Below, in pieces: positions 36,414 to 39,618 of a DNA stretch of 64,000 nucleotides. Position 1 is the first letter of the stretch; every line of letters begins with the position of its first letter. Both the position numbers and the translations under genes were made by a program. The DNA is taken from assembly GCF_004364975.1 (NCBI RefSeq), contig NZ_SOBW01000007.1, forward strand, positions 682,001-746,000, given 5' to 3'. The DNA comes from Gelidibacter sediminis. GTDB taxonomy: Bacteria > Bacteroidota > Bacteroidia > Flavobacteriales > Flavobacteriaceae. Under the pieces are notes generated by a model, which saw nothing but the letters and a program-made list of their open reading frames with translations, did no database searches and was not told the origin of the DNA.

Positions 36414-36878
36414 ATGAAAGCAAAATCCCATCAAAAACCTAACTCCTTAAAAGATTTTCTTCTAGAAAAAGGTTATATCAAGGTGAAGCTCAAATTGACC
36501 AAAACCAATCATTTCGAAATTAAAGCCACTATAAATGGCGTAAAGGGACTTTTTATTTTAGATACAGGCGCATCAAACTCGTGTGTGGGGTTTGAAGGAC
36601 TTGAAACATTTAAACTCACCGCAAAAGATTCTGATGTAAAAGCCGCTGGAGCTGGCGCCACGGACATGTTAACTCAACTTTCAAAAAAAAACAAACTAAA
36701 AATTGGCACCTGGAAAAAAGACAAAGTAGCGTTGGTACTATTTAATTTAACGCATGTTAATACCGCCCTTTTACATCATAATGCCCAACCTGTAGATGGC
36801 ATTATTGGCGCTGATGTCTTGAAGAAGGCAAAAGCAATTATCGATTATGAAAAGAATTATGTTTATTTAAAAATGTAG
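36414..36878 (+). CDS. retropepsin-like (clan AA) aspartic protease domain protein
   Basis: This 154-residue cytoplasmic-looking protein has the single-lobe aspartic protease signature LFILDTGASNSCVGFEGLE (about 45-63) with the catalytic Asp-Thr-Gly. The second conserved part is PVDGIIGADVLKKAKAIIDY (about 124-143), as in retropepsin-type bacterial proteins. It would act as a dimer. No signal peptide is seen. It lies 62 bp upstream of the response regulator on the same strand; whether they are linked is unknown. Proteolytic activity is inferred, and substrates are unknown. Confidence 0.8.
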   Translation: MKAKSHQKPNSLKDFLLEKGYIKVKLKLTKTNHFEIKATINGVKGLFILDTGASNSCVGFEGLETFKLTAKDSDVKAAGAGATDMLTQLSKKNKLKIGTWKKDKVALVLFNLTHVNTALLHHNAQPVDGIIGADVLKKAKAIIDYEKNYVYLKM

Positions 36879-36940
36879 TAATAGCCCCGTTTTTATAACA
36901 AAGTAGTACCTTTAAATTCCCTAACAATACGTAATAGCCC

Positions 36941-37576
36941 ATGCAAGCCTCTATAATTATAGCAGACGATCACCCTCTCATTCTTAAAGGTCTCACAGAT
37001 TTTCTAGTTGAAAAACAGTATAACCTTACTGGAAGCGCCGCGAATGGCAAAGAAGCATTCGAGATGATTCAATCACAACGCCCAGATATTGCCATATTAG
37101 ATATACAAATGCCTTATTTAACCGGGCTTGAAATAGCACAAAAGTGCCAAGATTTAAACCTCACCACCAAAATAGTCCTGATTACTTTTGAAAAGGATGA
37201 AAGTATTTACGCACAAGCTAAAACTTTAGAAATATACGGATACGTTCTTAAGGAATTTGCACTTGAAGAGATTGAAAACTGTATTGCTGCCGTACTAAAA
37301 GGTCGCGCCTATTTTAGCCCTGAATTGATTGAATATCTCGAAATTGACGAAGCACCTAAAGAACTGACGACTTTGACGCCCACTGAAAAAGAGGTGCTGA
37401 GACTTATTGCCAAAAATAAAACGGCTAAAGAAATAGGCAATATCCTATTTACGTCCAGTAGAACAGTGGAAAAACACAAAAGCCATATTATTAAAAAACT
37501 CAATTTAGAGTCTAAAGCGGGTAGTTTGGCCCTTTATGCCAAAGAGAATGAATCTTACCTTATAAAAAATACGTAG
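36941..37576 (+). CDS. NarL/FixJ-type response regulator (orphan)
   Basis: This 211-residue protein has a receiver domain with the acidic pair IIADDHP (about 7-9), phosphorylation Asp in PDIAILDIQMPYLTG (about residue 54), switch Thr in VLITFEKDE and Lys in YGYVLKEFALEE. The C-terminal LuxR-type helix-turn-helix spans about 145-200 (LTPTEKEVLRLIAKNKTAKE, SSRTVEKHKSHIIKKLNL). No sensor kinase gene is adjacent. The stop codon lies inside the first of three ATACGTA-N4-TACGTAT repeats that head identical promoter modules. That position makes this regulator the natural candidate to bind them, by inference only. Confidence 0.93.
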   Translation: MQASIIIADDHPLILKGLTDFLVEKQYNLTGSAANGKEAFEMIQSQRPDIAILDIQMPYLTGLEIAQKCQDLNLTTKIVLITFEKDESIYAQAKTLEIYGYVLKEFALEEIENCIAAVLKGRAYFSPELIEYLEIDEAPKELTTLTPTEKEVLRLIAKNKTAKEIGNILFTSSRTVEKHKSHIIKKLNLESKAGSLALYAKENESYLIKNT

Positions 37577-37616
37577 TTTTACGTATTGTTTGATAACATC
37601 TTTATAGCGATCTTTA
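37569..37616 (+). promoter_or_regulatory. regulated promoter module 1 (inverted repeat, 22 bp, -7 box)
   Basis: The inverted repeat ATACGTA GTTT TACGTAT (37569-37586) overlaps the response-regulator stop codon. Exactly 22 bp later lies GATCTTTA (37609-37616), a -7 box one or two bases off TAnnTTTG. No TTG -33 element is present. The repeat is centred near -44 of the expected start, as for an activator that replaces the -33 contact. Confidence 0.75.
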
Positions 37617-37621
37617 TAGTG

Positions 37622-37686
37622 CTATTAATCACACTGTTTGGAGGAACAGAGAAGCTCTGAATTTCAAAGAGATTCAGAGCTTTTTC
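37622..37686 (+). ncRNA. putative short RNA 1, ending in a strong hairpin
   Basis: The expected transcript from module 1 is about 65 nt. It begins with GTGCTATTAAT-type sequence shared with RNA 2. It has a small stem CTGTTT/GAACAG (37634-37649) with loop GGAG. It ends in a perfect 11-bp hairpin AAGCTCTGAAT/ATTCAGAGCTT (37652-37682) plus T5. It could be a free small RNA or a leader with a terminator before the peptide gene at 37702. Confidence 0.55.
37652..37686 (+). terminator. hairpin terminator between response regulator and peptide gene 1
   Basis: A perfect 11-bp stem with a 9-nt loop is followed by TTTTT. It ends the regulator transcript and RNA 1, and could attenuate the peptide gene. 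Confidence 0.8.
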
Positions 37687-37701
37687 ATAAAGATAACAAT
37701 C

Positions 37702-37803
37702 ATGAAACATCATTTCAGCCTGAGCAATATATTTTTCGCTTTGGGATTAATCACAACCTCAATTCTGGTAATCTCAATGAATATTTTAGTCGCTTTTTTT
37801 TAA
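37702..37803 (+). CDS. 33-residue single-span membrane peptide 1
   Basis: This peptide starts at ATG 37702 (MKHHFSLSNIFF). Residues about 10-33 form one hydrophobic span, and it ends NILVAFF. It is followed by a terminator at 37827. Its length equals that of peptide 2 at 38171, the two align without gaps, and both end in NILV(A/T)FF with a similar hydrophobic pattern, while the surrounding DNA differs. That is good evidence that both are translated. The function is unknown; a small regulator of a membrane protein or a stress peptide are possibilities. Confidence 0.7.
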   Translation: MKHHFSLSNIFFALGLITTSILVISMNILVAFF

Positions 37804-37826
37804 TTCGTTAGTTTTATAATTATAAG

Positions 37827-37855
37827 AGCGCACTCTAAACAAGAGTGCGCTTTTT
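37827..37855 (+). terminator. terminator of peptide gene 1
   Basis: A perfect 10-bp stem AGCGCACTCT/AGAGTGCGCT with a 5-nt loop is followed by T5. Confidence 0.88.
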
Positions 37856-37885
37856 GTATTATAAAAAATCAAAAGAATCAAAAAT

Positions 37886-37933
37886 ATACGTAGTTCTACG
37901 TATTGTATGGTACGCAAATAATGACGAAATTTA
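37886..37933 (+). promoter_or_regulatory. regulated promoter module 2
   Basis: The inverted repeat ATACGTA GTTC TACGTAT (37886-37903), exactly 22 bp, then GAAATTTA (37926-37933) has the same geometry as modules 1 and 3. It drives RNA 2. Confidence 0.75.
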
Positions 37934-37938
37934 CAGTG

Positions 37939-37999
37939 CTATTAATTCTTAGGGGAATTATTTTATAGAGCTCTGGATTGTCATTGATTCAGGGCTTTA
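37939..37999 (+). ncRNA. putative short RNA 2, related to RNA 1
   Basis: The expected transcript from module 2 is about 60 nt. It shares AGTGCTATTAAT at its start region with RNA 1. It ends in a related hairpin AGCTCTGGAT/ATTCAGGGCT (37969-37996, two G-U pairs in RNA), followed by a T-rich stretch. No convincing ORF follows before module 3; a 15-codon frame at 37921 is probably chance. It looks like a second copy of the same small RNA. Confidence 0.5.
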
Positions 38000-38026
38000 T
38001 TATTTAAGAGCATTTCTAAGCCAAAA

Positions 38027-38074
38027 ATACGTAACTCTACGTATTGTTTCATGTTGCCGCAAATCCGAAATTTG
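38027..38074 (+). promoter_or_regulatory. regulated promoter module 3
   Basis: The inverted repeat ATACGTA ACTC TACGTAT (38027-38044), exactly 22 bp, then GAAATTTG (38067-38074) is the closest of the three -7 boxes to TAnnTTTG. It drives peptide gene 2 with a leader of about 90 nt and no internal terminator. Confidence 0.75.
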
Positions 38075-38170
38075 CACAGTATCTAGTTGTCAGTAAAGGC
38101 TTACTATAGCAAAAATTGAACTTCTAAATTACAGAAATTGCATACCCAAATTATCTATATGTTTAAGCCT

Positions 38171-38272
38171 ATGAAAAAAAACAGCACGCATTGGAGCAAG
38201 TTATTTATCATCACTATCATCTTAAGCGCCGTATTGATCATCACCGCTAATATTTTGGTTACCTTCTTTTAA
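38171..38272 (+). CDS. 33-residue single-span membrane peptide 2
   Basis: This peptide starts at ATG 38171 (MKKNSTHWSKLF). A four-codon-longer start at 38159 (MFKP) is also possible. A short basic N-terminus leads into one hydrophobic span (about 11-33), ending NILVTFF. It is paralogous to peptide 1 in length, end motif and hydrophobic pattern. Downstream of module 3 and upstream of the terminator at 38295, it forms its own unit. Confidence 0.7.
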   Translation: MKKNSTHWSKLFIITIILSAVLIITANILVTFF

Positions 38273-38346: not shown

Positions 38347-39618
38347 TTATAATTCTAACGCTCTCTTAACATCGTTATCCATTAACAACTCTGTCGGATT
38401 TTCGAGAGCTTCTTTTATGGCCACTAAGAAACCAACACTTTCCTTACCATCAATAATTCTATGGTCATAAGAAACTGCTAAGTACATTATTGGTCTAATT
38501 TCTACATGTCCATCTATTGCAACAGGTCGCTCTACAATATTGTGCATTCCTAAAATTGCACTTTGTGGTGGGTTAATAATTGGTGTAGACAGCATACTGC
38601 CAAAAACACCACCGTTAGAAATCGTAAATGTCCCCCCGGTCATTTCATCTACGGTAATTTGACCATCACGAGCTCTAATAGCCAGTCGTTTGACCTCTGC
38701 TTCAACCCCTCTGAAGGTTAGATTTTCAGCGTTTCTAATTACCGGAACCATCAAGCCCTTTGGACCGGATACCGCAATACTGATATCACAAAAATCAAAA
38801 CTGATCATTTCCTGACCATCAATCATGGAGTTCACTGCAGGATATTGCTGTAGAGCTCTCACCGCTGCAAGGGTGAAGAAACTCATAAAGCCCAAACCAA
38901 CACCATGTTTTGTTTTAAATGTTTCTTTGTATTCTTCGCGCAATTTAAAAATGGCTGTCATATCAACCTCATTGAATGTGGTTAACATAGCGGTTTCATT
39001 TTTAGCGGATACCAAACGTTCAGCAACCTTACGACGCAACATAGATAATCTTGAGCGCGACTCACCACGTCTTCCTCCAGTTGGCGTTCCCATAGATGGT
39101 ACTGCTTTCACCGCATCATCTTTAGTAATACGTCCATCTTTACCTGAACCACTTACATCTGAAGCAGATATGTTTTTTTCAGCCAAAACTTTCTTAGCGG
39201 CTGGACTTGCAACACCAGAAGCATAAGTTTTTTGGGATGGATTTTCCTGTTTCTTAGATTCTCCCGTATTTGGGGTTTCCTTTTGTTCTTTAGCCAATTC
39301 TTTTTCAACGTCTTTATCACCGGAACCTTCATCACCTGTAGACTCAGATTTTTCAGAATCTGAACCACCACCTGGTTTTTCAGCGGCTGTATCAATTAAA
39401 CAAACCACTTCTCCAACGGCAACAGCATCACCTTCTTCTGCCTTTAATGTAATAATTCCGCTGGCTTCAGCAGGAAGCTCTAAGGTAGCTTTATCACTAT
39501 CTACTTCAGCAATAGCCTGATCTTTTTCTACATAATCGCCATCTGCAACTAACCAAGCTGCAATTTCTACTTCTGTAATGGACTCTCCTGGTGAAGGAAC
39601 TTTCATTTCTAAAATCAT
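38347..39618 (-). CDS. sucB: 2-oxoglutarate dehydrogenase E2, dihydrolipoyl succinyltransferase
   Basis: This 423-residue protein has one N-terminal lipoyl domain (lipoylated Lys in [12 protein letters not shown], about residue 43). A Lys/Glu/Ser-rich linker follows (about 85-130). The E3-binding domain is [19 protein letters not shown] and [13 protein letters not shown] (about 135-168). The catalytic domain has [31 protein letters not shown], and the active-site [13 protein letters not shown] (His, about 393). It transfers succinyl groups to CoA in the TCA cycle. It lies 72 bp downstream of sucA on the same strand, so it is co-transcribed. Confidence 0.96.

Follow-up and report, generated by a model that had tools for sequence, protein, structure and literature searches.

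OmpR is a winged-helix response regulator, the small RNAs (sRNAs) OmrA and OmrB use Hfq and reportedly pair through a conserved 5′ end, and the Qrr sRNAs of Vibrio repress luxO itself. According to the accessible part of the source, OmpR activates the related OmrA and OmrB, whose pairing represses ompR mRNA in a negative feedback (PMC12692685). LuxO–Qrr, as set out in the accessible part of its source, comprises several almost identical sRNAs with one activator site apiece, in feedback loops; LuxO acts together with sigma-54, the Qrr sRNAs together with Hfq (PMC2680268). For the window, by which we mean the whole 64,000-nucleotide stretch of Gelidibacter sediminis DNA analysed here, and its relatives, we computed a conserved promoter geometry, an RNA family, a pairing of sites with regulators and a leader complementarity; from sequence comparison, we consider it probable that a response regulator (RR) switches on tandem sRNAs, which then pair with the RR's own translation start without a recognisable Hfq. 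As for OmpR–OmrA/B, the predicted sRNAs are complementary to the start region of their putative activator's own mRNA, statistically so over 83 leaders, with the window alone not significant. Unlike OmpR, the window regulator is of the GerE/LuxR type; unlike OmrA/B, Hfq is not recognisable in relatives (PF17209 over cut-off in 0 of 39, with Hfq detected in 5 of 14 control genomes); and, unlike OmpR–OmrA/B, the palindromes are regulator-specific and adjoin the regulator, and one RNA is common to several regulators. The locus resembles Qrr in having several related sRNAs, each with its own activator site, and a proposed feedback, but differs from LuxO–Qrr in its sigma-A-type −7 box and GerE regulator.

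By description in the accessible parts of the reports, the nearest Bacteroidota sRNAs are FopS and Rfp18. FopS of Bacteroides comprises multicopy paralogous sRNAs pairing near start codons, with 14 copies, canonical promoters, susC-like mRNA targets and binding by RbpB; unlike the window sRNAs, it has no adjacent cognate regulators described in the part of the report available, and it is set apart on that description (PMC11697453). Rfp18 of Flavobacterium psychrophilum, a conserved flavobacterial sRNA, pairs with protease mRNAs through its third stem-loop, as far as the accessible text describes it, whereas the window RNA has two hairpins, and it too is set apart by description (PMC9723704). 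We found no homology to OmrA/B or Qrr; Rfam gave no match at gathering score at the window sRNAs or at six relative loci, the matches at the window sRNAs all being sub-threshold, and a literature search that covered few subscription papers found no description of the family. The palindrome sites described below look like promoters of a small-RNA family without earlier description. The action of sRNAs in Bacteroidota is little understood, and neither Hfq nor CsrA is recognisable in 39 relatives; the 1.4-kb locus studied here adds a conserved family of sRNAs for which an activator, a promoter, a 5′ end, a seed and a first target can all be predicted.

The RR gene (36941..37576, + strand) encodes 211 residues with a receiver and a GerE/LuxR helix-turn-helix (HTH) domain. 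Its earlier assignment to the FixJ/NarL type was borne out by PF00072 (1e-24) and PF00196 (1.2e-14), both over the Pfam cut-offs; a sigma-54 domain is absent from its Pfam matches, and UvrY/SirA/GacA are among its weaker matches. The gene upstream (36414..36878, +) is aspartyl-protease-like (Pfam Asp_protease_2) and is the usual upstream neighbour of the RR, found by tblastn at many loci of the palindrome class A defined below; this small gene is also a frequent neighbour of the RR in other genera. The right border of the cluster is a convergent dihydrolipoamide succinyltransferase-like gene (38347..39618, −), which we take to be odhB, and an odhB-like right neighbour is common to many class-A loci.

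Three palindromes ATACGTA-N4-TACGTAT (37569-37586, overlapping the RR stop codon, 37886-37903 and 38027-38044, with no strand assigned) are followed by −7 boxes on the + strand: GATCTTTA (37609..37616, predicted +1 near 37621), GAAATTTA (37926..37933, near 37938) and GAAATTTG (38067..38074, near 38079). All six positions, and the end of the regulator gene inside the first repeat, were verified as given in the preliminary description. The motif lies above background, with 3 matches in 64 kb at up to two mismatches compared to a shuffle mean of 0.24 (largest count 2 among 100 shuffles, 0 of 100 reaching 3). Across the whole genome, exact copies occur only at these three sites, with 3 further places at two mismatches; the reversed control pattern has no exact match and gives 16 matches at up to two mismatches versus 6 places for the real pattern, so only exact palindrome copies stand out. 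The 22-bp spacing is kept in relatives: at 12 cluster loci in 12 genomes (the window plus G001-G008, G013, G031 and G035), an xAnnTTTR box stands exactly 22 bp after each of the 33 exact palindromes, for 28 of them in the strict form GAnnTTTR, and any other offset from 12 to 32 has a box in at most 1 palindrome. The 24 exact palindromes elsewhere, which include one RR locus with a 21-bp spacing (L033 in G017), show no 22-bp preference, with 3 loose and 0 strict boxes at that offset. Clustering beside regulator orthologues was seen in 9 of 9 genus genomes, each with three clustered copies at the RR orthologue; the orthologues in eight congeneric relatives are 72–88% identical to the window RR.

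This fixed promoter geometry across relatives argues that the regulatory unit is real, as had been claimed, and, counted from where the conserved RNA core begins, the palindromes centre at −43.5, in agreement with the proposed class II activator geometry near −44. One earlier statement was wrong: a TTG −33 element, said to be missing, arises from the TG after each of the three repeats (ATACGTATTG), and among the upstreams listed all 32 class-B promoters retain a TTG after the palindrome, as do 32 of the 95 in class A. Taken as a whole, the preliminary description stood with respect to the regulatory unit, its geometry and the candidate RR, and failed on the TTG; it also overlooked the products driven, the complementarity of the RNA to the RR mRNA and the palindromes of other regulators before the same RNA. 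A sigma-A −7 box spans −12 to −5 in the accessible part of one report (PMC9723704), and placing the boxes here at −12 to −5 puts the predicted 5′ end of the RNA at the G of GCUAUUAA. A generic promoter and terminator scan of the window called neither the palindrome promoters nor the sRNA terminators.

Sites 1 and 2 precede predicted RNAs of ~70 nt with a conserved 5′ end, a hairpin and a terminator. The first, sRNA1 (37619..37690, +; fold z −4.94), has a terminator-like stem, and in sRNA2 (37936..38003, +; fold z −4.36), the most conserved copy, such a stem follows the core GCUAUUAAUUCUUAGGGGAAUU; in one relative the sRNA folds with a z of −4.2. Behind sRNA1 lies an open reading frame (ORF) for a hydrophobic micropeptide of 33 aa without a Pfam match (micropeptide 1, 37702..37803, +), followed by a terminator (37824..37854, +). 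Site 3 precedes a second hydrophobic 33-aa ORF (micropeptide 2, 38171..38272, +), and the intervening leader (38077..38170, +; fold z +0.74) is unstructured, folding no better than shuffles; the product of site 3 would be a membrane micropeptide with a putative single span. Small hydrophobic ORFs between the RR gene and odhB lie on the RR strand at 58 of 62 loci versus 9 of 62 for the other strand, and in G034 and G020 one follows the site directly, without the RNA.

Conserved features of the predicted transcripts, aligned 3′ of the promoters, are the start GCTATTAAT, the block TTCTTAGGG and a hairpin, rich in G+C, with a run of T. Scanning named genomes with a pattern for the RNA core, without the promoter, gave at least 116 loci; the shares reported here describe this sample, whose sequences were collapsed only when identical and whose relatives are not independent of one another. 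An ATACGTA-type palindrome (up to three mismatches) accompanies 81 of the 122 core matches listed and ends exactly 34 bp before the core in 79 of those 81, and 32 other core matches listed have a different palindrome, AATACTCAA-W-TTGAGTATT. In an alignment of 62 RNAs, the core is nearly invariant and the terminator stem is changed on both sides at 13 of 13 pairs; the 5′ hairpin covaries at 1 of 6 pairs only. A model of the family matches in 32 of 120 Flavobacteriaceae genomes, with up to four copies each.

The 139 distinct core upstreams listed comprise 95 of class A (centre −43.5) and 32 of class B (centre −43.0), with a −7 box in 93 and 31 of these, respectively. Class-A sites (ATACGTA) lie just downstream of the RR in 89 of the 95 distinct cases listed, class-B sites (TACTCAA-W-TTGAGTA) lie behind a PAS-LuxR protein (PAS_3–GerE) in 30 of the 32 listed, and there are no crossovers (0/95 class A with PAS-LuxR, 0/32 class B with the RR, among those listed). 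Seven of the eight non-pairing cases are near locus edges (five class A and two class B, all without upstream sequence), and L173, a class-A site without the RR, is a true miss. Because class-A sites adjoin the RR and never PAS-LuxR, and vice versa, the adjacent RR, already named as the obvious ligand, appears to be the best candidate.

That another NarL/LuxR-type regulator binds the palindromes instead seems improbable to us. It would account for one genome type, represented by G070 (locus L304) and L173, with intact sites and RNAs and no RR orthologue: G070 is complete in one contig and keeps both palindromes and RNAs, its best RR match being 32% identical and followed by a one-mismatch palindrome variant. 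It would also suit a paralogous RR in G035 whose stop codon is followed by two copies of this palindrome and no RNA core. Against it stand the 89 of 95 listed class-A cores behind an RR of the adjacent type, and L112 and L182, in which the RR was not found and the palindrome is degenerate.

The family offers a natural series: operator and regulator vary in step, and the RNA stays constant. At L145, a PAS-LuxR gene with a class-B site sits at the odhB locus, and 13 of 15 assemblies, chosen by name as each the source of two loci, carry two palindrome classes, with identical core letters in nine of these. Among PAS relatives read, the palindrome is behind the stop codon of the PAS gene in four of five, and a sixth, L199, has none there. 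A reading of 25 copies in 20 loci found no LuxR-type HTH nearby in L291 (near a contig end) and L304, near four class-E copies, or near one of four class-A copies of L297.

Further candidate regulators are a second PAS-LuxR and, more weakly, a kinase–RR pair. The former, at L092, has PAS_3 and GerE domains and adjoins an ATACCCA-N4-TAGGTAT site; classes C and D comprise 3 copies, only L092 having such a neighbour, while the locus edge truncates the neighbour at L133, a propeller protein, and also the neighbourhood of L103. Class E (TTACGG-N4-CCGTAA, 4 copies in G013, G112 and G113) lies behind the RR of a kinase–RR pair and is only a possible class, because that RR has a receiver domain below the Pfam cut-off and no GerE domain, the palindrome centres range from −38.5 to −45, the usual −7 box is missing from every copy, and G112 and G113 carry an altered 5′ block. 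Eight of the 139 upstreams fit no class: L087 and L132, which resemble class A with more mismatches; L126, similar to class B but shifted; the degenerate L096; L139, a tandem copy lying close by; L111, apparently a chance match; and L112 and L182, both without the RR. We tentatively suggest an interchangeable regulator–sRNA cassette, which might well be what these classes reflect: at least three regulators (the NarL-type RR, PAS-LuxR and the second PAS-LuxR, this last seen in one genome), perhaps also the kinase–RR pair and the propeller-type protein, would have captured one core, each with its own palindrome at nearly the same position. The RNA would then be a shared hub that dampens regulator mRNAs, its own activator's first, and links pathways without Hfq, with the membrane micropeptide as a second output.

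Two blocks of the RNA are antisense to the leader of the RR mRNA, where the complementary site (36915..36938, +) consists of AATTCCCTAA (36915-36924) and TAATAGC (36932-36938), the latter ending 2 nt before the RR start codon. The first block, TTAATAGC, occurs in 32 of 83 distinct RR leaders compared to a shuffle mean of 0.585 (largest 3 in 200 rounds), and the second in 42 of 83 compared to a mean of 9.5 (largest 18), and sense-strand control versions of the two blocks gave 0 and 0. Where an sRNA-like core lies nearby, 63 of 79 RR leaders contain one block or the other; where none does, 0 of 4 do. By duplex energy, 39 of 74 RR leaders rank with the best 5% of shuffles versus 2 of 27 PAS leaders, and PAS-LuxR leaders contain the first block in 0 of 31 and the second in 3 of 31; PAS-LuxR as a general target of the RNA is thus unsupported. 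In the window itself, the sRNA2–leader duplex (−19.1 kcal/mol) is equalled by 26 of 200 shuffles and is not significant alone, sRNA1 is matched by 43 of 200, and the site-3 leader by 107 of 200. Many RR leaders outside the genus have the two blocks in swapped order, and one continuous duplex therefore cannot form. Of 84 RR coding starts, 20 likewise contain TAATAGC, which we ascribe to conserved VIADD codons.

These data bear on an alternative in which the RR drives the sRNAs as a standard regulon output whose main work is on other mRNAs, the leader complementarity being secondary. The same core stands under regulators whose own leaders lack sites (the PAS leaders above), so a shared trans target would be expected, and pairing in the window is modest; we nevertheless find this alternative unlikely, given the block enrichment in RR leaders and the lack of another near-perfect target in the genomes searched. 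The 13-base complement TTCTCCCTAAGAA has 42 exact places in 27 genomes, of which 40 are sRNA genes. The other two lie upstream of regulators, 23-25 nt before a PAS-LuxR gene (L118/L292) and before another receiver-domain gene (L306); they are striking for their places but, at 2 versus 5 reversed-control matches over the 27 genomes, show no excess. Nor was there an excess of complementary patterns in the genus (32 versus 41 reversed controls, the 32 including two places in G003 that had no locus and were left unread) or of one-mismatch complements in four genomes (24 versus 29), where the 15 one-mismatch places all lie away from gene starts. The genome-wide search for exact and one-mismatch sites gave no gene-start target beyond the two regulators.

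In the autoregulatory reading that we prefer, the active RR would bind ATACGTA-N4-TACGTAT centred at about −43 and, as a class II activator, recruit sigma-A RNA polymerase, with two or more sRNAs of ~70 nt and a micropeptide with a single membrane span as the predicted output. The RNA 5′ block GCUAUUAA and the hairpin-loop block UUCUUAGGG would pair with UUAAUAGC and CCCUAA in the RR leader; to judge from this complementarity, pairing beside the start codon may block RR translation and close a negative feedback loop in which one activator is served by several copies of the RNA. Other regulators, chiefly PAS-LuxR with its own palindrome, would drive copies of the same RNA, and different signals would therefore feed one RNA. 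Our confidence is held at about two thirds because of the genomes without the RR, the weak pairing in the window, the swapped blocks, TAATAGC in coding starts, the control-level match counts and the generic scan.

The GacA-dependent RsmY/Z RNAs carry a GGA-like motif in a hairpin and act as a sponge for CsrA. The GGGA in the loop of the window RNA and the weaker GacA-like matches of the RR would fit such a function, which we rejected as scarcely credible, since CsrA (PF02599) is over cut-off in 0 of 39 relatives and was detected in the E. coli, B. subtilis and T. maritima controls; a different protein that binds GGA might still be the one sequestered. Equally far-fetched is that the repeats serve not as promoters but as a mobile or structural element of the DNA: isolated exact palindromes do occur in other contexts in related genomes, with several copies in G031, but the fixed −7 spacing, the covarying terminators and the regulator-specific palindromes argue against it.

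Palindromes in other settings have recurrent contexts of their own. In four congeneric genomes, isolated exact copies (L039, L040, L046, L049) share the context AAATGCA...GATAAAATGCA..TAGTCGAAATTAT, which adjoins a terminator-like hairpin and is without the −7 spacing; another recurrent context, TTTCA.GA.TGGAATTCAAGAAGC..., also without that spacing, is found at L041, L043 and L047. G031 (L028, L037, L038) contains five TATACGTAACC-type palindromes, then a shared TTTTT(A/T)-rich stretch, perhaps a repeat element. The paralogous RR of G035 (L307) is 40% identical, and its palindrome is long and of the TCAATACGTAGGTCTACGTATTGA type. The variant directly behind the distant RR gene of G070 is TACGTA-N4-TACGTA (L335, 2131-2146), and a site behind a regulator's own gene may be a wider habit.
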